This document shows positions 4,075 to 30,011 of a stretch of 37,258 bases of DNA, piece after piece. Source of the stretch: Chloroflexota bacterium (GTDB taxonomy: Bacteria; Chloroflexota; Anaerolineae; 4572-78; NAK82). The stretch is taken from contig JAJRXB010000232.1 in the NCBI GenBank assembly GCA_024276515.1, forward strand, positions 1 to 37,258, given 5' to 3'. A model generated the notes under the pieces. That model saw only the letters and a list, made by a program, of their open reading frames with translations, was not told the origin of the DNA and ran no database searches. Every line of letters begins with the position of its first letter. Position 1 is the first letter of the stretch. A program made the translations under genes and the position numbers.

Positions 4075-4103
4075 TTCTAACTTTTTTCTAAGTATATTCT
4101 CAC
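4075..4103 (+). promoter_or_regulatory. Triple direct repeat TTCTAAC/TTCTAAG/TTCTCAC, 11-bp period
   Basis: ttctaac-tttt-ttctaag-tata-ttctcac upstream of gmhB-like gene; related to sites at 11451 and 23322. Confidence 0.55.
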
Positions 4104-4184
4104 GGCTTTATCATTAAGTGCTGTTACACTCGCAGTGTAAAATTTCGGACTAATTATGTTGGCTTTTGTGAGGAGATGACTGGA

Positions 4185-4811
4185 ATGCGTGCCATATTCC
4201 TCGATCGGGATGGCGTGATCTGCGAAAACCGGTCCGACCACGTGAAGAGCTGGGGCGAGTTTCGATTTCTGCCCGGGGCCAAGAACAGTCTGGCGGCTCT
4301 GAGCCGATTGGGCTTGCCCATCATCGTGATCACCAATCAGGCCATCATCGGGCGGGGAATGGTTCCGGCCAGTGTGGTGGATGACATCCACTGGCGGATG
4401 GTGGCCGAGGTGGAAGCCCACGGTGGACGCATTGACCGGGTGATGTATTGCCCGCACCGACCGGAAGACCGGTGTGGCTGCCGCAAACCGGAGCCGGGGA
4501 TGCTGTTGCAGGTAGCCGACGAGATGGGGATAGACCTGGCTCAGTCCTATCTGGTGGGGGACGCTGCCACCGACCTGGTGGCCGGCCGGCGGGTCGGCTG
4601 CCAGACGTTCCTGGTGCTGACCGGCCGGGGCTTGCAACAGCTTTTGCCCACCTTTCGCTCGGTGGACCAGTTCACCATCACCCGCAATTTGATGGGAGCC
4701 ACCACTCACATCCTCAAGGCCGAATTGCACGTTGCCGACAAACTGGATTTGTGGAGCCCGACTTATGTCAGACGGCGTAGCCGGCCACTATCGGTTGCGA
4801 GCAGCTTCTGA
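4185..4811 (+). CDS. gmhB: HAD-family D-glycero-D-manno-heptose-1,7-bisphosphate phosphatase-like
   Basis: MRAIFLDRDGVICENR, IVITNQAIIGRG, YCPHRPEDRCGCRKPEPGML, YLVGDAATDLVAGRRVGC; start 4185 chosen (AGGAG spacing). Confidence 0.85.
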   Translation: MRAIFLDRDGVICENRSDHVKSWGEFRFLPGAKNSLAALSRLGLPIIVITNQAIIGRGMVPASVVDDIHWRMVAEVEAHGGRIDRVMYCPHRPEDRCGCRKPEPGMLLQVADEMGIDLAQSYLVGDAATDLVAGRRVGCQTFLVLTGRGLQQLLPTFRSVDQFTITRNLMGATTHILKAELHVADKLDLWSPTYVRRRSRPLSVASSF

Positions 4812-9398: not shown

Positions 9399-11312
9399 AT
9401 GTGGCAATTACGTGAACGGTTTGGCACCCGAACTATCGTCGCCACCGTGGTTTTGCTGGTGGGGATGGCCCTTTTGGGTGTGTTGGCCTACATCGCCTCC
9501 ACTTCGCCGGCGCCGGCCACACCGCAGGTGTTGATCGAAGACACCCCGACCGCCACCTTCACGCCGTTGCCGTTGCCGGTGATCACCCCCAAACCCGCAG
9601 CGTCGCCGACGGAGAGCCCCCGGCCACTGATCAGCCCCACCGTCGCCCCTGTCTCGGCGGCCGGAGGGATTGTGTACGCCATCTCGCCGCGCGTCAACGC
9701 CGTGGGCTGGGTTCGTTCGGGCGAAAGCGGCAACCATTTCGGCGGCAGTAACCTGTTCGCCGGCTGGAGCGACGGTCGGCACTACCTGGGCGCTGTGCAA
9801 TTCGATCTCTCCTTCCTCCCGGCCGACGCCCTGATTTATTCGGCGCGGATCGAGCTGACCGGCTTGCAGGACGCCGGCCTGGGGAGCGACGGGACGTGGA
9901 CTCTCTCGCTGTTGAGCGATGCCATGGAGGATCAGTGGGCTTCGCACACCTACGAAGTCATCAGCAACGCGCCGGTAGACGCGGTCATCCCCCCCGCGTT
10001 GACGCCCGCCGACCTGGGACGGACGCGCGTCAACGTTTTTGAATTCAGCGCCGAGCAGCGGTCGCTGCTCGAAAAGCGGCTGGCGGTGGGGAGCGTTTCG
10101 TTCCGGATCGATGGCCCGGCCGGCGGCCCGGACAACCTTTTTGCCTGGGACACCGGGTACGGGGCGGGCACATTGGGACGGGGCCCCATCCTGCGGCTGG
10201 GTGTGTTGTTGCCCACGCCCATCCCCAACGTCACCCAAACGGCCGAGGCGGAGATACTGGCCGCCGGCTACACGCCAACGCCGACGGCCACCTACTTCGT
10301 CGTCACCAGCACGCCGACGCCGGAGAACATCTTCACTCTGGCGGCGATGGCGGCCACGGCCACCCAGGTGGCAACGGCGACGGGGACCTACACCCCGGTG
10401 CCGGAGAACTGGGTGACACCCATCGTCGTCACGCCGCGTCCCACGCCGGCCAACACGGCGACGGCGGTGTATCGAGACGCGGTCGCCACCGCCGAGGCTA
10501 TCGCCTTTGGCACGCCCACCCCCACGCCCATCAACGTGTGGACGGCCACGCCGACGCCGGTCTTCGTGCTGCTCGACGGCGAGATCCCGACCCCGGCACC
10601 CACGCCGACTCCCACGGCCACACCCGGCCCCATCCCGTCGGTGCTGGTGGGTAAGATCGCCTTTCTCTCGGACCGGGCCGGGGGCGACGAGCCGTTGGTG
10701 TACGTGATGGACCCAGACGGCAGCAACCTGGCCATCCTGACCGACCGGGTCCACTACGACCTGGCGGTGGCGCGCGATGCCTACTCTGCCGACCAGCGAT
10801 ACCGGGTGTTCGTGAAGGATGCGATCATTGATACGGGCACGGAGGATCGCTTCGGCAACGTCGTGCCCATTCAACTGAGAGTTCCTACCCTTTTCTTCTA
10901 CGATTTCTATTATAAAGTGGAGAAACAAATCACCCACTTTGGTGCGGGCATCGCCTATGAGCCGGCCTGGTCGCCCACCGCCGACCAAATCGCCTTCGTC
11001 TCCAACGACAGCGGCAACGACGAGATTTGGATCATCAATCGCGATGGCAGCGGTGCCCTTCAATTGACGAGCGATACGTATGGTTGGTGGGACAAACACC
11101 CTTCTTTCTCGCCTGACGGCTCACAGATCGTGTTCTGGTCCAACCGCACCGGAAACAAACAGATTTGGGTGATGCCTGTACCTGGGGCGCAGGCACAGGT
11201 AAACATCGACGGCAGCGGGCTGTACAGTCTCAGCCACACCGCGTTCAACGACTGGGACCCGGTGTGGATCAAATACACCGATCCACCCCGCGATCCGACG
11301 CTGGTTGAATAG
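9399..11312 (+). CDS. Membrane-anchored protein: N-terminal TM, DNRLRE-like beta domain, TPTPT-rich linkers, C-terminal TolB/WD40-like propeller repeats
   Basis: TM segment TIVATVVLLVGMALLGVLAYIA; long Thr/Pro-rich tracts; repeats KIAFLSDRAGG..YVMDPDGSNLAILT, QIAFVSNDSGNDEIWIINRDGSGALQLT, QIVFWSNRTGNKQIWVM. Confidence 0.75.
   Translation: MWQLRERFGTRTIVATVVLLVGMALLGVLAYIASTSPAPATPQVLIEDTPTATFTPLPLPVITPKPAASPTESPRPLISPTVAPVSAAGGIVYAISPRVNAVGWVRSGESGNHFGGSNLFAGWSDGRHYLGAVQFDLSFLPADALIYSARIELTGLQDAGLGSDGTWTLSLLSDAMEDQWASHTYEVISNAPVDAVIPPALTPADLGRTRVNVFEFSAEQRSLLEKRLAVGSVSFRIDGPAGGPDNLFAWDTGYGAGTLGRGPILRLGVLLPTPIPNVTQTAEAEILAAGYTPTPTATYFVVTSTPTPENIFTLAAMAATATQVATATGTYTPVPENWVTPIVVTPRPTPANTATAVYRDAVATAEAIAFGTPTPTPINVWTATPTPVFVLLDGEIPTPAPTPTPTATPGPIPSVLVGKIAFLSDRAGGDEPLVYVMDPDGSNLAILTDRVHYDLAVARDAYSADQRYRVFVKDAIIDTGTEDRFGNVVPIQLRVPTLFFYDFYYKVEKQITHFGAGIAYEPAWSPTADQIAFVSNDSGNDEIWIINRDGSGALQLTSDTYGWWDKHPSFSPDGSQIVFWSNRTGNKQIWVMPVPGAQAQVNIDGSGLYSLSHTAFNDWDPVWIKYTDPPRDPTLVE
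11175..11199. repeat. Palindrome CCTGTACCTG-GGGCG-CAGGCACAGG inside CDS
   Basis: 9/10 arm complementarity; lies in a 27-nt segment that interrupts the propeller motif in frame. Confidence 0.6.
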
Positions 11313-11450: not shown

Positions 11451-11505
11451 TCTAACTTTTTTCTAACTAATCTCACATTGAGTTCCTATGTTGATGTGCT
11501 AGGAT
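11451..11505 (+). promoter_or_regulatory. Putative regulated promoter: CTAAC-N6-CTAAC direct repeat, TTGAGT-N16-TAGGAT
   Basis: First 39 bp match the site at 23322 at 37/39 positions; -35-like TTGAGT 11478-11483 and -10-like TAGGAT 11500-11505. Confidence 0.6.
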
Positions 11506-11639
11506 TGGGGGCGTAGGAGCGAGCGAGGCTCGCCATACTATTGCTCTGGTCGGTCTGCCCGGCCTTCCGTTCGCCTGCCGGGACGGGCGGGCGCAGGTGC
11601 AGGCAGGCAAGACAGGCCGGCCGGGCCAGGATTGGGGGC
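11501..11639. repeat. 12-bp perfect direct repeat AGGATTGGGGGC flanking a ~115-bp palindrome-rich segment
   Basis: aggattgggggc at 11501-11512 and 11628-11639; intervening GC-rich sequence includes GCGAGCgagGCTCGC and GCCTGCC...GGCAGGC. Confidence 0.6.
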
Positions 11640-11647
11640 ACGAGTCA

Positions 11648-13513
11648 ATGGAATTAGGACGCTATTTTGACGTGGTAAAGCGCTGGTGGTGGTTGATCGT
11701 CGTCAGCGTGGCGCTGGCGGCTGGTGCCAGCTACGTGTACAGCGAGCGGCAGCCGCGCATCTACGCCTCGCGGACCACGCTGATGGTCGGCACCAGCATC
11801 CAGAGTTCCAATCCCGATTTACGTGATCTGGGCCTGAGCCGAACGCTGGCCGAGATTTATGGGCAGCTTGTGCTTCGCAAACCGATCACGCAGGCAGTGA
11901 TCGACAAGCTGGGGCTGGATATGTCCCCCAGTCAATTGTCGGGCATGATCAACACCAAAGTGATCCCAGACGCTCAGCTTCTTGAGATCACTGTGCTCGA
12001 CGTGCATCCCCAGCGGGCGCAGATATTGGCCGATGCGGTTGCCAGGGAGCTGATTTTGCAAAGCCCGACTGAGGCAAAAGAACAGCAGGCCACGCGCCAG
12101 TTCATCTATTCCCAGCTCCAGGAGTTGCAGGACAAGATCGAAGAGGTGAGCCGCCAGATCAAGGAGATTGAGGACTCGATGCTGAGTATGACCTCGGCCG
12201 CCGACATCGCCGAGGCCAAGTCACGTCTGTCCGAACTCCAGGCTTTGAAATCCAACTATCAGGCCAACTACACCGGGCTGTTGGGCTACCTCTCCGACTC
12301 GTCCATCAACACGCTCACCATCGTCGAGCCGGCCACCATTTCTACCAAGCCGGTTGCGCCCAACGTGAAGAAGAACGTTCTGATTGCGGCGATTGCCGGT
12401 CTGGCGTTGTCGGTGAGCGCTGTGCTGCTGCTGGAATTTGCCAGCGATACCCTGACGTGGCACGCGAAGGGCGTTCAAACCGTGGTCGGTGTCCCGATTC
12501 TGGGGGCTCTGGGCAAACTGCCGCCTTCGTCGGACAAACTGATCGCCCGTGCCGATTTGTGGTCGCCCGAGGCCGATGCCATTCGCAACATGCGGACGAA
12601 CATCTTCCTTTCGATGCGTGATCGCAACATTCGCACGTTGCTCATTACCAGCCCTGAGATGGGGGCGGGTAAAACTCTCACGGCGGCCAATCTGGCGGCC
12701 ATCACCGCTTCGGGGGGGTCTCCTGCCATTTTGGTTGACGCCGACTTGCGCAAGCCGTCGATTCACGAATTGTTCGACCTGCCCAACCTGTTGGGGCTGG
12801 CCGACGTGCTGGCGGCCTCGGAGGAGACGTTCGACGAGACGTTGGACAAGGCACTGCAATCGGTGGACATCGCCAACCTGTGGGTCTTGCCGGCGGGCAA
12901 GGTTCCCATTGACCCCACCCTGCTCCTGGGCTCGTCCAATCTGACCTGGCTGATCGAACGTTTGCAGGAGCGGGCCGGACTGGTGGTCTTTGACTGTGGG
13001 CCGGTGTTGTTGCATCCCGACTCGGCCATTCTGGCAACCCGGGTAGATGCGTCGCTGCTGGTTGTCAGACACGACCAGAGCAGTCGGCGCGCCACCCAAA
13101 AAGCGGTTGACCGTTTTGCGGCGTTGGGCCTGACCAATCTGGTTGGCGTCGTGTTCAATGGAGTCCACCTGCCGCGCCGCTATTACGTTTACACTCATCG
13201 TCGGGCTAAGCCACGTAAGCGCCGGGGAGCGGTCGCCAGAAGTGGTGGTGCCCGGAGTTGGCTGGGACGCTTCGGGCTGCCCCTGGGAGGGGGGCAGGTG
13301 GCCCAGGCCGACGACTCTATGCTTTCGTCGGTGGACGTGGCCGAGTACCTGGGGGTTACAGAAGCTACCGCCTCTCGTTGGTGCGAAACGGGACGCATCC
13401 CGGCTACCAAGATCGGTCGCCAGTGGTGGGTCCGCCCGGAGGACCTGCGTCGGTTTGCGATGGACTACAGTGGCGGCCGTGACCTGAAAGAACTGGAACT
13501 GTCTGAGGTTTGA
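11648..13513 (+). CDS. Wzc-like polysaccharide co-polymerase / bacterial tyrosine kinase with C-terminal excisionase/MerR-type HTH
   Basis: Wzz-type N-terminus with two TMs (WWWLIVVSVALAAGASYVY; VLIAAIAGLALSVSAVLLLEF), Walker A SPEMGAGKTLTAANLA, ILVDADLRKPSIHELF, VVFDCGPVLL, then LSSVDVAEYLGVTEATASRWCETGRIPATKIGRQWWVRPEDLRRF. Confidence 0.9.
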   Translation: MELGRYFDVVKRWWWLIVVSVALAAGASYVYSERQPRIYASRTTLMVGTSIQSSNPDLRDLGLSRTLAEIYGQLVLRKPITQAVIDKLGLDMSPSQLSGMINTKVIPDAQLLEITVLDVHPQRAQILADAVARELILQSPTEAKEQQATRQFIYSQLQELQDKIEEVSRQIKEIEDSMLSMTSAADIAEAKSRLSELQALKSNYQANYTGLLGYLSDSSINTLTIVEPATISTKPVAPNVKKNVLIAAIAGLALSVSAVLLLEFASDTLTWHAKGVQTVVGVPILGALGKLPPSSDKLIARADLWSPEADAIRNMRTNIFLSMRDRNIRTLLITSPEMGAGKTLTAANLAAITASGGSPAILVDADLRKPSIHELFDLPNLLGLADVLAASEETFDETLDKALQSVDIANLWVLPAGKVPIDPTLLLGSSNLTWLIERLQERAGLVVFDCGPVLLHPDSAILATRVDASLLVVRHDQSSRRATQKAVDRFAALGLTNLVGVVFNGVHLPRRYYVYTHRRAKPRKRRGAVARSGGARSWLGRFGLPLGGGQVAQADDSMLSSVDVAEYLGVTEATASRWCETGRIPATKIGRQWWVRPEDLRRFAMDYSGGRDLKELELSEV

Positions 13514-13514
13514 G

Positions 13515-14297
13515 ATGCTGGCAAACATACGAGAGCTCTCTGCTCACCGTGGGTTGCTCATCAACTGGGTGATCCGCGACATCAAGGTGCGTTACAAACA
13601 ATCTCTGATGGGGGCGGCCTGGGCTGTTTTGCAGCCGCTATCGGCCACCCTCATCTTTGCCCTCATTTTCTCTCGTTTTGTCCGTGTGCCGACCGACGGC
13701 ATTCCCTATCCAATTTTCTACTACTCGGCCCTGTTGCCCTGGACTTTTTTTGCCTCCTCTATCACCTTTGGGGTGGGCAGTCTGGTCAGCAATATGAGTC
13801 TGGTGACCAAGATTTACTTCCCGCGCGAGATTTTGCCCCTCTCGGCGGTGTTGGCCAGCATGGTGGATTTCTTCATCGCCTCGATCATCTTCGTTGGGAT
13901 GATGATCTTCTACCAGGTGCCTTTGAGCGCCAGCCTGATCTGCATCCCCCTGCTGCTTCTGATTCAGATCACCCTGACGGTTGGGGTCGTGCTGTTCGCG
14001 TCGGCGATGAACGTGTTTTACCGGGACGTTCGCTTTGTGATTCCTTTGGGCCTTCAATTGTGGATGTATCTCACGCCGATCATCTATCCGCTAAACATGG
14101 TCCCCGAGCGGTTTCGCGCCCTGTATATGCTGAACCCGATGGCTTCGGTCATCGACTCGTATCGCCGCACCATCTTGCTGGGAGAATGGCCCTCCTTCTC
14201 GTATCTGGCGTTGGGAGGGCTGACGGCTGCCGTTTTGTTGGTCGTGGCCTACTGGTACTTCAAGCGGTCCGAGGCCGTGTTTGCCGACATCATCTAG
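13515..14297 (+). CDS. ABC-2 type polysaccharide export permease (Wzm/TagG-like)
   Basis: LINWVIRDIKVRYKQSLMGAAWAVLQPL...; multiple TM segments; directly upstream of Wzt-like ATPase. Confidence 0.9.
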   Translation: MLANIRELSAHRGLLINWVIRDIKVRYKQSLMGAAWAVLQPLSATLIFALIFSRFVRVPTDGIPYPIFYYSALLPWTFFASSITFGVGSLVSNMSLVTKIYFPREILPLSAVLASMVDFFIASIIFVGMMIFYQVPLSASLICIPLLLLIQITLTVGVVLFASAMNVFYRDVRFVIPLGLQLWMYLTPIIYPLNMVPERFRALYMLNPMASVIDSYRRTILLGEWPSFSYLALGGLTAAVLLVVAYWYFKRSEAVFADII

Positions 14298-14315
14298 AGC
14301 TTCGTCGAGGGTGTG

Positions 14316-15560
14316 ATGGCTGCCATTGAATTTCAAAACGTGCGTAAGGTGTATCGAATTGGGAAGGGACGTGGGAGTTTGCGGGACGCCGTCCCCGCTG
14401 CTCTGAACGCGCTACTCCGGCGCAATCATCAGGCCAAAGAAGATTTGCTGTGGGCTTTGAAAGGGGTCAGCTTCGAGGCGCATCGTGGAGAGACGGTGGG
14501 CATCATCGGTCCCAACGGCGCCGGCAAGACGACGATCCTCAAACTGCTCTCCCGCGTCACCCGGCCAACCAGCGGCCACATCGCCGTCAATGGCCGCGTT
14601 TCGGCGCTGATCGAGCTGGGCGCCGGCTTTCACCCAGACCTGACCGGCCGCGAAAATATTTATCTGAACGCCTCGATTTTGGGTCTGAGCCGGCGCGAGA
14701 TAGAGGAGAAGTTCGACAGCATCGTGGAGTTCGCCGAATTGGCCGAGTTCATTGACACCCCGGTGAAACGCTACTCGTCGGGGATGTACGTGCGTCTTGG
14801 CTTTTCGGTGGCGGCCCACGTGGACCCCGACATCCTGCTCATTGACGAGGTGTTGGCCGTCGGCGATCACATGTTCAAAGATAAGTGCATTCAGCGCATC
14901 AAAGAGTTCAGAAACGCCGGCAAATGCATGGTCATTGTTTCGCATAGTAAGGAGCAGATTCAAAAGCTCTGCGACCGGGCCATTCTGCTGCACAAAGGTG
15001 AGGTTGTCTTCCAGGGGGATACCCAGGAAGCCCTCGATCGGTATCACACGGCTTTTGCTACCGAAGTCTTGCGCGAGCAGGGAGGGGCCGCCGGTGGCAA
15101 TGGCAGGAGCAACGAGGACCGGGAGATGGAGATCGTAGGCGTTTCCCTGCTCGATAGCCAGGGGAAGGAGCGGCTTTCGTTTCTGACGGCCGAGCCGATG
15201 GCGCTGGAGATCCGTTTTCGGGTGAATGCACCGATCAAGGACCCCGTCTTTTATTCGCGCATTCGCCGCGGGTACCAGGTTTTGCACGGCACGACCACCG
15301 CGCGTTTCAACATTCAGGGTGAGTTTAAGCCGGGTGATACGGGCATTGCCAGGGTTCACTACAAGAGTTTGAATCTGTTGAACGGGGAATACAACATCAA
15401 CGTCGGCATAAAGCCAGACCACTTTTCGCCTCGAACCTATGATTTTGTGGATAGCGCCGTCGTTTTCACCGTTGGGTCGCGCTTTGACCAGGGAGGAGGG
15501 GTGGTCTATCTGGATCACGATTGGGATTTGGAAAAAGGGCCGTTGCCCGAGTCCAGGTAG
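14316..15560 (+). CDS. Polysaccharide ABC transporter ATP-binding protein (Wzt/TagH-like) with C-terminal Wzt_C-type domain
   Basis: IIGPNGAGKTTILKLL, RYSSGMYVRLGFSVA, DILLIDEVLAVGD, C-terminal extension EMEIVGVSLLDSQGKERLSF.... Confidence 0.92.
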   Translation: MAAIEFQNVRKVYRIGKGRGSLRDAVPAALNALLRRNHQAKEDLLWALKGVSFEAHRGETVGIIGPNGAGKTTILKLLSRVTRPTSGHIAVNGRVSALIELGAGFHPDLTGRENIYLNASILGLSRREIEEKFDSIVEFAELAEFIDTPVKRYSSGMYVRLGFSVAAHVDPDILLIDEVLAVGDHMFKDKCIQRIKEFRNAGKCMVIVSHSKEQIQKLCDRAILLHKGEVVFQGDTQEALDRYHTAFATEVLREQGGAAGGNGRSNEDREMEIVGVSLLDSQGKERLSFLTAEPMALEIRFRVNAPIKDPVFYSRIRRGYQVLHGTTTARFNIQGEFKPGDTGIARVHYKSLNLLNGEYNINVGIKPDHFSPRTYDFVDSAVVFTVGSRFDQGGGVVYLDHDWDLEKGPLPESR

Positions 15561-18849: not shown

Positions 18850-18860
18850 AGGATTTGAGT

Positions 18861-20714
18861 ATGCCCGGTTTGGTGGGGGTGGTTGGTAAGGCCGGCGGCA
18901 GCCAATCGGAGAGGTTGTTGGCCGACATGGCGCAGGCCATCAAGCACGAAGATTGGTACCAGGTGGACCTGTACCAGGGGGAAGGTTTTGGCCTGGGCCG
19001 GGTGCATCTGGGATTCCTCAATCCAGAACCACAGCCGATCTGGAACGAAGATAAAACCCTGTGCCTGGCGATGGAGGGGGAGGTTTACGATTACCAGGAC
19101 TTGAAGCAACAGCTTATCGCTCGTGGTCATCGCTTTCGGGTAGACAACGACGCCGAGTTCGTCCTGCACCTGTTTGAGGAGTTTGGCGAGGAGTTTGCCT
19201 CCCGGCTCAATGGGGCGTTTGTGGCAGCCATCTGGGATGCCCGAGCCCACAAGCTTTGGGTTGTGAATGACCGCTTTGGCCTGCAAGCCCTCTTTTACCG
19301 GCAGACTGGAGAGCGTTTGTTGTTTGCCGGGCACACCGCTGCCTTTTTCGCCGACCCGACTTACGAGCCTCAGGTTGACCAGGTTGCGCTGGCCGAGTTT
19401 TTCTCGTTCGAGCACGTCCTGGGCGACCGAACCCTGCTGGCCGACGTGAAGCTGTTGCCGCCGGCTTCTATATTGACCTTCCAGGTGGGCCAGTTGTCCA
19501 TCCGCTCCTATTACGACTTTCAATTCGTCGAGGACTATCAGGATCACGATGAAACCTGGTACGTGGAGCGGTGGATCCGTCTTATGCGCCAGGCGGTGGA
19601 GCGTCGTATGCGGGGGGATGGTCCCGTCGGTGTGCAATTGAGCGGTGGCCTGGACTCGCGCACCGTGTTGGCGATGATGGGCCGACAGTGTGGTTCGGTT
19701 CACACGTTCACCTTTGGTATCCCCGGCTGCGACGATGCGCGCTTCGCCCGCGAAGTGGCAGCCAGACGGGGCACGACGCATCATTTTCTGGAACTGAAGC
19801 CCGATTACCTGCGCACGCAGGCCGAAGAAGGGGTAAAATTGGCCAATGGCCTCAAAAGCTGCGTGCATATGCACGTCCTGGGCACACTGGGCGAGACGGC
19901 GGAGATCGTTGACGTCCTCTACACCGGCTCCTTAGGCGATTCGATTATGGGCATCCACCTTCAGCGCGACTTGTTGGCCATTCACCGCCCGTCCGTTCTT
20001 GCCCGGATGTTGTTCAATCGTTACAACAATTGCTTCTCAGAAGACAGCCATCCCAGGCTTTTTTCCGATGACTTCTACGGGCGGGTCAAGGGGGCTGTGT
20101 TTGAGGAGTTTAACCGGGTGTTGGCCGAATCACGCGCCCGGCTTTCTGCCAACAAGCGCGAGCATTATTCCATCCGGCAGAACGACCGTCGCTGGGTGTT
20201 GGAGGGGCAAAACTTACTGCGCTCTCGGTTGATTGTCCGTACCCCTTTCTACGACAATGACCTGGTAGACTTTATGCTGACCGTGCCTCCCGGGCTGCGG
20301 TGTGATGGGTATCTCTACGTTCGTGGCTTCATCCAGGCCGCACCCGACCTGGCGAAGATACCTTTTGCGCGGGCCGGCTTGCCCCTGGTCCCTTGTATGC
20401 GCGATCTGTCTATCAGAGCCAACCGGCAAATGCGCTGGTGGTTGCAGCAGGGAGGGCTGAAGTGGGTCTCTCCTCCCAAAAAGCGGCCCTATGCCGATTA
20501 CAATCACTGGCTGCGCACCGCGTTGCGTGACTGGGTCGAAGGTATTCTGCTGGACCGCCGCACTCTGGATCGAGGATATTTGCGCCCCCAATATGTGCGC
20601 GCTCTGGTCGAACGTCATATGCAGGGCGAGGGGGAGTTTGCGCGTCAGCTTGGTGTGCTGTTGACGTTTGAACTGTGGCATCGCATGTTCCTTGATCAAC
20701 GTCTGGCCGGGTGA
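18861..20714 (+). CDS. Asparagine synthetase-like protein 1 (glutaminase nucleophile missing)
   Basis: MPGLVGVVG..., EGEVYDYQDLKQQLIARGHRF, LNGAFVAAIWD, NDRFGLQALFY, VQLSGGLDSRTVLAMM; residue 2 is Pro rather than Cys. Confidence 0.88.
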   Translation: MPGLVGVVGKAGGSQSERLLADMAQAIKHEDWYQVDLYQGEGFGLGRVHLGFLNPEPQPIWNEDKTLCLAMEGEVYDYQDLKQQLIARGHRFRVDNDAEFVLHLFEEFGEEFASRLNGAFVAAIWDARAHKLWVVNDRFGLQALFYRQTGERLLFAGHTAAFFADPTYEPQVDQVALAEFFSFEHVLGDRTLLADVKLLPPASILTFQVGQLSIRSYYDFQFVEDYQDHDETWYVERWIRLMRQAVERRMRGDGPVGVQLSGGLDSRTVLAMMGRQCGSVHTFTFGIPGCDDARFAREVAARRGTTHHFLELKPDYLRTQAEEGVKLANGLKSCVHMHVLGTLGETAEIVDVLYTGSLGDSIMGIHLQRDLLAIHRPSVLARMLFNRYNNCFSEDSHPRLFSDDFYGRVKGAVFEEFNRVLAESRARLSANKREHYSIRQNDRRWVLEGQNLLRSRLIVRTPFYDNDLVDFMLTVPPGLRCDGYLYVRGFIQAAPDLAKIPFARAGLPLVPCMRDLSIRANRQMRWWLQQGGLKWVSPPKKRPYADYNHWLRTALRDWVEGILLDRRTLDRGYLRPQYVRALVERHMQGEGEFARQLGVLLTFELWHRMFLDQRLAG

Positions 20715-23321: not shown

Positions 23322-23376
23322 TCTAACTATTTTCTAACTAGTCTCACATTGAGTTCCTATTATCCTATGTTAGAGT
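23322..23376 (+). promoter_or_regulatory. Putative regulated promoter: CTAAC-N6-CTAAC direct repeat, TTGAGT-N16-TAGAGT
   Basis: Near-identical to 11451..11489; TTGAGT 23349-23354 and TAGAGT 23371-23376 at the same spacing. Confidence 0.6.
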
Positions 23377-24729: not shown

Positions 24730-24783
24730 GTGCGGCACAACAATCGGCCTGAGCCGATCCGCTGCTGTTTGGATGAGTTCGAT

Positions 24784-26646
24784 ATGAGCGGTGTGTTTGG
24801 AATCGTGGATCGGGAGCGTCGGCCAGAGGTGGCGACTCTCCTGCAAGCTATGGCGGAGCGGCTGAAGCTGCGTCCGTGGTACGCCGTTCAGTGTCACGCC
24901 GATCCCGCAGCCGGCGTGGGGTTGGGTCAGGTCAACATCGGCCTTTTCAGCCACGAGCGGCAACCGGCCCGCCATCTCGAGGGCAGCCTGTGGGGGTGCT
25001 TTTTCGGCGATCTCTACAACGCCGACGTCCTGCGTCGCCAGGTGGGGGAGGCCGCAGGCGTCGGCGAGAGCCTGGCAGACTTGATTCTCTCCCTCTATCG
25101 GCTTCAAGGGATGGACTTCGTTCGGGGGCTGGACGGTCAGTTTGTGCTGGCCATCTGGGATGGGGAGCGTGGGTGTTTGACGCTGGCCAACGACCGGTTT
25201 GGTCTTTATCCCCTATACTATGCCCACTACGACGGAAAACTGCTCTTTGCGCCCGAAGTGAAAGGGATACTGGCAGATTCCAGCTTCGAGAAACAGCTCA
25301 ATTTGACCGCCCTGGCCGAGTTTATGCGGTTTCAGCGTTTGCTGGGCGACAAAACCTTCTTCGAGGGGATAACCCTGCTGCCATATGGCTCCTTGCTCCA
25401 GTTTGAACCGGGCACCGACATTTTGCACGTGGAACACTATTGGGACTTTGACCAGACGCCCGCGTGGCCGGCCGGCGCCGATTTTGACGAAGCGGTGGCC
25501 GAAACCGGTCGCCTCTTGCGCCGGGCGGTCAACGTCCGGGCCGATGGGGGCCTGCGGGTGGGTGTCTACTTGAGCGGGGGGCTCGATTCTCGGACCGTCC
25601 TGGGATTCATCGACCGCCGGCACTTTCCTGTCACCACAATCACCTATGGGGTGCCCGGTTGCCGCGACGCCATCTACGCCGAGAGGATCGCTCGCCGGGT
25701 GGGGAGTGATCACCACTTCTTCCCCCAACCAGACGGGCGATGGCTGGTAGACCTGGTAGACTTTCACCTGGAAGTCACCGAGGGGTTTACCACCTTTGTC
25801 CACAGCCACGCCGCGCCCACCCTGGAACCGGCCCGTGGCCTGATGGACGTGAATCTGACGGGCTTCAACGGCGACCAACTCCTGGGAGCGCGCGGCGTGC
25901 AGTATGCTCACAACGCTGTCAATGCACCCGACGACGTTGCCTTTGTGGGGCAGATGTTTTACTGCTTGAATCAGCGTTTTTGCTGGCCCGGCATCACCGA
26001 GGCGGAAGAGAAGCTTCTCTACACGCCCGAGATGTACCCGGTGATGCGTGACCGTGCCTTTGAATCTCTGGTCCGCGAGCTGTCGAAGTTCAGCCGTTTT
26101 GACCGGGTGCGGCAGGCAGATTACTTCCTGGCCATTCACCAGGGGAGCCGCCTGAGCCATCTCAATCTGGTCTATCAACGGGCTTTTCTCGAAGTCCGCT
26201 ATCCCTTTGTGGACTACCAACTGATGGACTTCGTTCACTCGGTGCCGGTGGAATACCGTCTGAACGACCGGCTCTACCTGGCCGTTCTCAATCGCGAAAT
26301 CCCCAAAGTCACCTGGGTGCCCCGCGACACCGACGAGAGACTATTGACCGACCGGCGGCTGATTCGAGAGGCGCATGGTCTGTGGCAAAAAGTCCGGCGG
26401 CGGACGTTCGGTCGTGCCAGCCGCAAGATTCACGAGGACCCCGAGAACTGGCTGCGATACGACGCCCGTGAGTGGGCCGAGCGCATCCTCTTCGACCGGC
26501 GGACGCTGGAACGGGGCATCTTCAACCCGGCCTTCTTGCGCTCCATCTTCGAACGGCACATGTCGGGCCGGGAGATTCACACCATCGGCAAAATTGCGCC
26601 CATCATCACCTTCGAGATGATGTTGCGTCGCTTTTACGATAACTGA
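24784..26646 (+). CDS. Asparagine synthetase-like protein 2 (glutaminase nucleophile missing)
   Basis: MSGVFGIVDRERRP..., LDGQFVLAIWDGERGCLTLANDRFGLYPLYY, VYLSGGLDSRTVLGFI; residue 2 is Ser; C-terminus resembles paralog 1 (DRRTLERG...ERHMSG). Confidence 0.88.
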   Translation: MSGVFGIVDRERRPEVATLLQAMAERLKLRPWYAVQCHADPAAGVGLGQVNIGLFSHERQPARHLEGSLWGCFFGDLYNADVLRRQVGEAAGVGESLADLILSLYRLQGMDFVRGLDGQFVLAIWDGERGCLTLANDRFGLYPLYYAHYDGKLLFAPEVKGILADSSFEKQLNLTALAEFMRFQRLLGDKTFFEGITLLPYGSLLQFEPGTDILHVEHYWDFDQTPAWPAGADFDEAVAETGRLLRRAVNVRADGGLRVGVYLSGGLDSRTVLGFIDRRHFPVTTITYGVPGCRDAIYAERIARRVGSDHHFFPQPDGRWLVDLVDFHLEVTEGFTTFVHSHAAPTLEPARGLMDVNLTGFNGDQLLGARGVQYAHNAVNAPDDVAFVGQMFYCLNQRFCWPGITEAEEKLLYTPEMYPVMRDRAFESLVRELSKFSRFDRVRQADYFLAIHQGSRLSHLNLVYQRAFLEVRYPFVDYQLMDFVHSVPVEYRLNDRLYLAVLNREIPKVTWVPRDTDERLLTDRRLIREAHGLWQKVRRRTFGRASRKIHEDPENWLRYDAREWAERILFDRRTLERGIFNPAFLRSIFERHMSGREIHTIGKIAPIITFEMMLRRFYDN

Positions 26647-28142: not shown

Positions 28143-30011
28143 ATGGCTGAGATAGAGCAAACGGAAGCCAGGCGGCGATCAAGCGATGATCTCTTGGAAA
28201 TACCGGCCATAGGCTCCTTTACGGTATTTGGCGTAACCAAAAGACCTGTGCGTCTCATCGGCAACACCGGGCTGGGTGAAGCGGAAACAACAGCCCTGGC
28301 CATCCCCCTTGGCGGGGAATATCATCTCTTCCTCAGAACGCCGGCCTCGAATCTGGTGAAAACGAATGGAGTCATCGCTCTGAAATTGGGGTTCATCAGG
28401 TCCCCCTCTGGAGAGATTCTATCCCCCGCCGATTTGCTGGCTCAACGAGTCGCAACCCCTCAGCTTATTGACTGTGAGGAGGTAGAGGGTGACGCAGTGA
28501 TAGGCTGCTTTCACCTGCAAGAACCTCGTTTCTCTCTATTCAGAACACTTCTCGGAGTGCCTGATCTCTACTACTGGGCCGCTGATGGTGAGATTCTTTG
28601 CTCAGATAATCTGAAGGCCTTGATCGCCCTGCTCCCAACCCCACAATTGGACCCCAAAGTGCTGCCGATGCATTTCTTGTATCGGTTTGTAGGGGGGCAT
28701 AAAACTTACGTCGAGAATGTTCACCGCCTTCCTGCCGGCTCTACTCTGACGTGGCACGCCGGCAGGCTCGAACTGGAATATGCAAAAGACATACGCGATT
28801 CTCTGCGCCAGGACCGATTCAGCCAAATGAGTGATGAGGCCGCAACTTTTCTATTCCAGCGATATGCAGAGGTCGTTGGTCATTACTTGAGAGAGGCGGC
28901 CCCATCGGGGAAGGGGTTTGGTTCACTTCTGTCTGGCGGAGTCGATTCCTCGCTTATGCAGCTACTTATTGACGAACATCTGGCGCCCGGCGTGGAGCGT
29001 CGCTCCTTCAGCTACGCGGTAGACACCCCCGCCTTTCTGCCAGAAGTGGAGTACGCTGTCCAGGTCACTCAACGGCTGGGTACCAGGCACACTTTTGTAC
29101 CCATCGCGCCCGAGGAATACCCTGCCCTGTTGATCGACGCGATCCGAATCCTGGGGCAGCCTGTTGCTCCGGAATCGGTGCCTTGCGTCCTGCCGGTAGC
29201 CCGCTACCTTTCACAGCAGGGTGAGGACATAGCCTATCTGTTTTGCGGCGCAGCCGCAGACGCGCTGCACGGGGTATCTAAGGCGGAAATCCTGTGGCAT
29301 TTGCAACGATGGGTTGCACTTCCTGCCGCCGGCTTGGGACTAAAGTTGTTCGAGCCCCTGATGCGAGCAGTAGATCCCCATAAAGCCTTCCTGATGCGTA
29401 CAGCGGTCTCCTTCTTGCCTTACGTTAATGATGTGACTTCACCTCGCTTTCCCTGTAACGAGTATGGAGTGTACACGGATTTTGAGTTGGTCCGTCGCAG
29501 CTTTGACGCGGATGCAATTCGGTCGGCCTTCGCCTGCCGGCAAGAGGAGGAGGCCAGATATTTGAACAGCCCTTCGTTGATCGAGAAAGTGCAGACCTTG
29601 AGTTTGTTGAGCATTGTGCACCCCATAGCTTCTTTGTGGCACCAGTTGTTCCTGGCGTATGGGATCGCTTTGATCCATCCCTATCTGGACGAGAAGATCG
29701 TCAAAACGACCTATGCTTTCGATCCCGGCATCAGATTCTATCATAAAGGCAGGATCAAACCCATACTGAAGCGTTTGCTGGAGCAAAGGTCACTGGCAGA
29801 GATTGCGTCTTTGCCCAAGCGCGGCAGTGGCTTTCATTTGGACTTGATGCAGTGGATGAGAGAAGGTGTCTTGCAGGATATGGTACACGCCATCGAGCGG
29901 CCGCCCTTCCTCGACAAAGCCGATTTCGAGCGCAAGCTCGAGGAACCAGACTGGTTTACCTGGAGCATGTTGACCCTGGATTTATTCCACAAAAACGTGC
30001 TGCAAGCTTAA
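28143..30011 (+). CDS. Asparagine synthetase-like protein 3 (N-terminal glutaminase domain highly divergent)
   Basis: YYWAADGEILCSDNLKALI, SLLSGGVDSSLMQLLIDEHL, LGTRHTFVPIAPEEYPALLIDAI, LIHPYLDEKIVKTTYAF; no N-terminal Cys. Confidence 0.82.
   Translation: MAEIEQTEARRRSSDDLLEIPAIGSFTVFGVTKRPVRLIGNTGLGEAETTALAIPLGGEYHLFLRTPASNLVKTNGVIALKLGFIRSPSGEILSPADLLAQRVATPQLIDCEEVEGDAVIGCFHLQEPRFSLFRTLLGVPDLYYWAADGEILCSDNLKALIALLPTPQLDPKVLPMHFLYRFVGGHKTYVENVHRLPAGSTLTWHAGRLELEYAKDIRDSLRQDRFSQMSDEAATFLFQRYAEVVGHYLREAAPSGKGFGSLLSGGVDSSLMQLLIDEHLAPGVERRSFSYAVDTPAFLPEVEYAVQVTQRLGTRHTFVPIAPEEYPALLIDAIRILGQPVAPESVPCVLPVARYLSQQGEDIAYLFCGAAADALHGVSKAEILWHLQRWVALPAAGLGLKLFEPLMRAVDPHKAFLMRTAVSFLPYVNDVTSPRFPCNEYGVYTDFELVRRSFDADAIRSAFACRQEEEARYLNSPSLIEKVQTLSLLSIVHPIASLWHQLFLAYGIALIHPYLDEKIVKTTYAFDPGIRFYHKGRIKPILKRLLEQRSLAEIASLPKRGSGFHLDLMQWMREGVLQDMVHAIERPPFLDKADFERKLEEPDWFTWSMLTLDLFHKNVLQA

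Follow-up and report, generated by a model that had tools for sequence, protein, structure and literature searches.

A BY-kinase fused to a predicted DNA-binding winged helix in a Chloroflexota glycan locus

The fusion gene and its locus

The window, i.e., the whole 37,258-nucleotide stretch of DNA that was analysed, is a glycan locus with a Wzm/Wzt exporter, many glycosyltransferases, a Wzy_C protein, and heptose-precursor genes that resemble GmhA, HddA, and GmhB. It also holds three AsnB-like amidotransferase genes (18855-20714, 24730-26646, and 28143-30011) and a FemAB-like gene. The features on which the analysis turns are these:

4076-4127, + strand: third, weaker TCTAAC element, 5' of the GmhB-like gene at 4176-4811
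9399-11312, + strand: PD40/TolB-like propeller protein, a recurrent 5' neighbour of BY-kinase genes
11451-11502, + strand: TCTAAC-n5-TCTAAC element, 197 bp 5' of the fusion gene
11648-13513, + strand: BY-kinase-HTH fusion gene, 621 amino acids, comprising a Wzz co-polymerase region, a P-loop tyrosine autokinase, and a winged HTH
11651-11911, + strand: Wzz/PCP segment including TM1 (residues 2-88; Pfam PF02706, 24.9 bits against a cut-off of 25.5)
12377-12433, + strand: TM2 (residues 244-262; hydropathy 2.7)
12584-13192, + strand: BY-kinase domain (residues 313-515; NCBIfam TIGR01007, 136 bits, cut-off 108)
12650-12676, + strand: Walker A, SPEMGAGKT (residues 335-343)
12728-12757, + strand: Walker A', ILVDADLRKP (residues 361-370)
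12983-13003, + strand: Walker B, VVFDCGP (residues 446-452)
13181-13192, + strand: short Tyr cluster YYVY (residues 512-515), between kinase and HTH
13193-13318, + strand: basic/Gly-rich linker (residues 516-557), not conserved
13319-13459, + strand: HTH_17 winged helix (residues 558-604; Pfam PF12728, 47.8 bits, cut-off 27, E = 1.8e-12)
13515-14297, + strand: Wzm-like ABC-2 permease, the next gene of the operon after the fusion
14313-15560, + strand: Wzt-like ABC ATPase with Wzt_C
23322-23373, + strand: second TCTAAC element, 5' of a UDP-sugar dehydrogenase gene

At several other loci (L153-L158, L170, and L171), a PD40/TolB-like gene immediately precedes the BY-kinase gene, whether or not the kinase has the HTH, and the propeller proteins are possible conserved partners of the kinases.

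Translation of 11648-13513 gives 621 residues with a single stop at the end and none internal; an in-frame GTG upstream, at 11597, is a possible alternative start. The original prediction of one uninterrupted ORF with a Wzz region, a BY-kinase, and a C-terminal HTH is therefore borne out by the translation together with the Pfam and NCBIfam matches. It had also proposed two TMs. The second is supported by hydropathy, whereas the first (residues about 14-32) is under the hydropathy threshold, and its call rests on the Wzz match. A GNVR-type segment at residues 218-262 scores 20.5 bits, below the Pfam cut-off. That the Wzz/PCP membrane domain is present in cis is indicated by full-length homology to other BY-kinases, by the near-cut-off Wzz match, and by TM2, which by homology to Wzc would put both the kinase and the HTH in the cytoplasm.

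The kinase itself looks complete in its nucleotide-binding motifs. The three motifs listed in the original prediction, Walker A, A', and B, are found at residues 335, 361, and 446 and are intact, with K342, D364/D366, and D449 all there; a Pfam CbiA P-loop match spans residues 332-506. The nearest solved kinase structures in the PDB search were CapAB and Wzc, and Etk was also matched. Only a short RRYYVYTHRR had been noted before the linker and HTH, and we likewise count three Tyr there (512, 513, and 515), which are not C-terminal. This cluster is reduced relative to most unfused relatives; counts range from 0 to 6 in fused relatives and reach 12 in unfused ones.

From about 13319 onward, the HMM match, the predicted fold, and the pattern of conservation all agree with an excisionase/HTH_17 identity, and the alternative that the C-terminal ~50 residues are not an HTH failed against all three. 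The NCBIfam excisionase family TIGR01764 matches residues 563-603. A single-sequence AF2 model of the isolated tail (pLDDT 81) has the order a1-a2-b1-b2-a3 of a MerR-like winged helix. In the full-length single-sequence model, pLDDT is 41 overall, and the tail is nonetheless in winged-helix order. The top Foldseek matches of the tail are RacA-DNA, BldC-DNA, and phage Xis, with probability 1.00, although for a domain this short the E values are no better than 0.003. We considered whether the domain could be an excisionase proper (a recombination directionality factor). The context argues otherwise: the domain sits in a 621-aa membrane protein, and no recombinase or integrase was found among the window genes scanned.

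Conservation adds to the case for DNA binding. Ten HTH positions (A565, L568, G569, R577, W578, C579, G582, R583, W593, and L600) are invariant in a ten-member fused alignment, and the linker between kinase and HTH is not alignable across ten fused proteins. In three close pairs, dN of the HTH is 0.01-0.13 and dS is 0.7-2.5. A profile-to-PDB alignment matches Arg577/Trp578 with the R-W pair of RacA and of BldC (Arg30/Trp31); in BldC, Arg30 reads a YpG step base-specifically and Trp31 touches the backbone (PMC5859096). A MerR/excisionase-type DNA-binding fold is thus well supported for the modelled tail. Given the invariant positions, dN far below dS, the predicted fold, and an Arg/Trp pair aligned to the BldC contacts, it is likely that the tail binds DNA.

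Distribution of the fusion and losses of the HTH

A join of two genes near 13300 could in principle come from an assembly or frameshift error. The search for other proteins of the same architecture, called for in the original prediction, rules this out, since the same fusion recurs in at least 16 other genomes. Kept across at least 17 related genomes, the BY-kinase-HTH fusion is a real protein design.

How far does this design extend? In 100 related genomes, the search brought up homologues whose match extends through the HTH. With an HTH-only profile run over 396 genomes of the class, the fusion is present in at least 17 genomes from 9 families, all of one class, including a copy that ends at a contig edge (G028) and one whose diverged HTH is barely above the Pfam cut-off (G285). 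Within the order the split is clean, with fused proteins above 870 bits and others below 525, and three genomes (G000, G015, and G024) carry both a fused protein and a separate BY-kinase match that ends before the HTH. Among the matches examined in 400 genomes of the window's phylum, BY-kinase fusions occur only in the window's class; none of the long HTH-bearing ORFs opened outside the class in these genomes is a BY-kinase. Further afield, 115 of 300 genomes sampled from a clostridial phylum had BY-kinase matches, and none of these reached the HTH columns; no plasmid tblastn match among the matches listed reached the HTH, and a scan of genome contigs returned a single distant clostridial BY-kinase. 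HTH_17 does have another P-loop partner in the window's phylum: in other genomes it is fused N-terminally to a ParA-like ATPase (L180), with similar weak P-loop matches at L181 and L193.

In a maximum-likelihood tree built from the Wzz and kinase part, with HTH and linker left out, all 17 fused proteins fall into a single clade that also takes in 4 unfused ones (support 100/98); the least secure placements are those of the long-branch rows L098 and L094. Three state changes are required, best read as one gain and two nested losses of the HTH, and a single origin of the fusion is likely on this topology.

The two losses differ in what accompanies them. In G036/G071, the BY-kinase has no HTH, its Walker A (GRT) is without the lysine, and its Tyr cluster is gone too; the orthologous cluster holds a standalone HTH_17 gene of 74-102 aa. 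In G036 this gene lies between a HAD gene and a hexapeptide-transferase gene, which adjoin with no gene between them in G024, a genome that has the fusion. In the other loss lineage (G034/G069), no standalone HTH gene was found nearby among the matches listed. One event against one non-event makes the association between a standalone HTH and loss of the kinase-borne one suggestive. Simple fission of the fused domain was considered for G036/G071, and the HTH tree, built on few columns and weakly supported, gives it no backing. Because the standalone HTH groups there with other standalone HTHs, apart from the fused ones, it resembles a replacement more than a fission product, and it may be a coincidence. 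Elsewhere, standalone RWC-type HTH_17 genes adjoin FHA-Ser/Thr kinase genes (L071, 6334-8369; L074, 7634-9562).

Kinase motifs also vary among proteins that keep the HTH. In the fused protein of G033, Walker A is degenerate (GRT), Walker A' is altered, and the Tyr cluster is absent; in Walker A' of the G015 and G337 proteins, a D is replaced by N. Because the dead-looking, Tyr-less kinase of G033 retains its HTH, DNA binding by the HTH, if it occurs, need not depend on phosphorylation. The fusion at L088 (7220-9028) is of this kind, a natural kinase-dead-looking variant with degenerate Walker A (GRTF) and A', a linker without Tyr, and an intact HTH. At L101 (1-1968), a BY-kinase-like ORF has two Wzz segments in tandem.

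Genomic context of fusion genes and the TCTAAC elements

Fusion genes with readable flanks lie mostly in glycan clusters, and elsewhere than in the window they occur mainly in two arrangements, one with Wzm/Wzt and the other with AsnB-like/Wzy_C genes. About half are inside operons, with little or no gap after the preceding gene. In G030/G097, response-regulator and histidine-kinase genes lie directly 5' of the fusion gene.

The TCTAAC direct repeats, which have an 11-bp period, gave 8 genome matches against 0 for a reversed control, and the element is enriched in the order. It lies 5' of OmpR-type response-regulator genes in G036, G071, G030, and G097, and it also adjoins a response-regulator/histidine-kinase pair in the window's own genome. 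There, the pair is on contig C237 (L160), of which 339 bp match the start of the window with 3 mismatches; its histidine kinase is of the GAF/PAS type, and the contig also has two further TCTAAC elements and an initiating sugar transferase. PD40-BY-kinase operons with an HTH-less kinase (G011, G014, G017, G021, and G022) likewise have the element on their 5' side, as does one in G007, where the contig ends within the kinase. Because the element precedes both regulator genes and polysaccharide operons with an HTH-less BY-kinase, it is most economically read as a predicted OmpR/PhoB-type response-regulator box, probably for the regulator on C237. The fusion gene itself would then seem to be a target of this response-regulator system.

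The repeats at 11451 and 23322 had been put forward as possible binding sites of the HTH, an idea with some appeal because BldC binds direct repeats. We reject it in favour of the response-regulator reading: the element occurs with the OmpR-type regulator and with glycan operons rather than with the HTH. Nor did a comparison of the sequences upstream of fusion genes find an operator, with 5 shared direct repeats observed and 4.8 in shuffles.

Possible roles of the fusion and comparison with known systems

The architecture, its conservation, the tail's predicted fold, and the conservation of its DNA-contact residues are what the analysis shows; what lies beyond the DNA-binding fold and its conservation, we infer. 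The fusion is probably a membrane-tethered DNA-binding protein. Our preferred reading, for which we see the balance as about even, is that of a specialised BY-kinase paralogue whose cytoplasmic winged helix, of the BldC/RacA/Xis type, makes it a membrane-tethered one-component regulator. The target of such a regulator would most likely be its own glycan locus, and the direct coupling of glycan assembly state to transcription suggested in the original prediction is plausible. The intact Walker motifs, the restriction to one clade, the conserved HTH, the glycan clusters, and the standalone HTH gene in G036/G071 count in favour of a regulator. Against it count the failure to find an operator, the intra-operonic position of half of the fusion genes, the short Tyr cluster, and the grouping (weakly supported) of the G036/G071 standalone HTH apart from the fused HTHs.

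For its mechanism, the preferred reading draws on Wzc, in which the Tyr tails sit in the active site of the adjoining subunit and so keep the unphosphorylated octamer together, and phosphorylation leads to disassembly (PMC8285477). If the fusion protein behaves in a Wzc-like way, its unphosphorylated form would be a ring held by Tyr tails, which phosphorylation would loosen. The winged helix, placed after the Tyr cluster, would be displayed in many copies around the ring and set free or shifted upon phosphorylation; several winged helices held side by side could bind DNA cooperatively, and binding could weaken when the ring comes apart or the adjacent Tyr cluster is phosphorylated. The separate histidine kinase/OmpR-type response-regulator pair would probably set overall expression of the locus via the TCTAAC boxes. 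The HTH kept beside a dead-looking kinase in G033, and the D to N changes in G015 and G337, count against a strict kinase-to-DNA switch. A bolder form, which we hold only tentatively and consider somewhat doubtful, is a one-chain tyrosine-kinase transcription factor, in which a cycle of autophosphorylation would put a set of winged helices onto DNA and take it off again, and assembly state would be read as expression without a second messenger or a separate regulator.

It is also conceivable, if unlikely, that the winged helix serves as a tether to the nucleoid or as a sensor of it, so that glycan export is linked to chromosome position or segregation, or DNA binding activates the kinase. RacA, the closest fold, is a chromosome-anchoring protein, and there are precedents for both variants: the BY-kinase CpsD interacts with ParB, whose mobility is altered by CpsD phosphorylation (PMC4574921), and the membrane kinase YabT is activated by DNA (PMC6333020). 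A tether would also suit both the member that retains its HTH beside a kinase-dead-looking domain and the outcome of the operator search. However, the HTH resembles the transcription factor BldC equally, and a general division role is less likely because the fusion is limited to glycan loci of one class and ordinary BY-kinases co-occur in some of the genomes. The HTH_17 domain might instead have been co-opted as a protein-protein module, for instance a response-regulator target or an oligomerisation element, that does not bind DNA. Membrane tethering limits access to DNA, BldC winged helices pack head-to-tail on one another (PMC5859096), and the linked regulator and histidine-kinase genes of G030/G097 would fit such a role; we judge it quite improbable, since few positions are as conserved as the DNA-contact Arg/Trp and the standalone HTH relatives are laid out like DNA-binding proteins. 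That the tail was lost twice shows that the HTH is dispensable in some lineages, as would be allowed if the fusion had arisen by chance or neutrally, or were an error of assembly or a frameshift, and its HTH had no role. Conservation in at least 17 genomes of one clade, with invariant residues and dN far below dS, largely refutes this and leaves it barely credible.

The preferred reading, a membrane-tethered regulator, bears on how bacteria sense the assembly of a capsule or surface-glycan machine and adjust expression. The fusion may give the machinery of the sugar coat a direct link to the chromosome. Whatever the mechanism, the fusion offers a defined clade, natural variants that look kinase-dead or lack the HTH, and clear positions for point mutations. 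Each of the domains is well known. Their combination is apparently undescribed in the open literature searched, including that on Chloroflexi, where we found no description of a BY-kinase-HTH fusion; subscription papers and preprints lie outside this scope.

Membrane proteins that bear a DNA-binding domain, as the fusion does, include E. coli CadC and ToxR, membrane-tethered one-component regulators with OmpR-type wHTHs and periplasmic sensors and no kinase. On the kinase side, the fusion is like Wzc/Etk of Gram-negative and CapAB/CpsCD of Gram-positive bacteria in its Wzz-type membrane domain and its Walker A/A'/B autokinase, and the three Tyr after the kinase may be a counterpart of their Tyr cluster. 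Unlike these, it has only a short run of Tyr, a tail that runs via a linker into a winged HTH, a periplasmic part of only about 210 residues, and a Wzm/Wzt ABC exporter as operon partner.

The HTH shares fold and family match with RacA and phage Xis/excisionase (HTH_17, TIGR01764), though no recombinase appears among the window genes scanned. It shares fold, winged-helix size, and the recognition-helix Arg-Trp with BldC (PDB 6AMA and 6AMK), a MerR-like head-to-tail DNA binder (PMC5859096); BldC, however, is a free 68-aa protein, whereas the fusion HTH hangs on a membrane kinase. YabT, the DNA-activated membrane Ser/Thr kinase of B. subtilis, also combines a membrane kinase with DNA binding, which is predicted in our case, but it is a Hanks-type kinase with a disordered basic DNA-binding stretch and no HTH (PMC6333020). 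A BY-kinase is likewise tied to a DNA-binding protein in S. pneumoniae CpsD-ParB (PMC4574921) and in the phosphorylation of the FatR HTH by PtkA (PMC3814354); no DNA binding was seen for CpsD itself (PMC4574921). These known links between BY-kinases and DNA go through separate partner proteins rather than one chain, whereas a kinase with its own conserved DNA-binding domain would make the question of how glycan assembly is sensed directly testable within one molecule.
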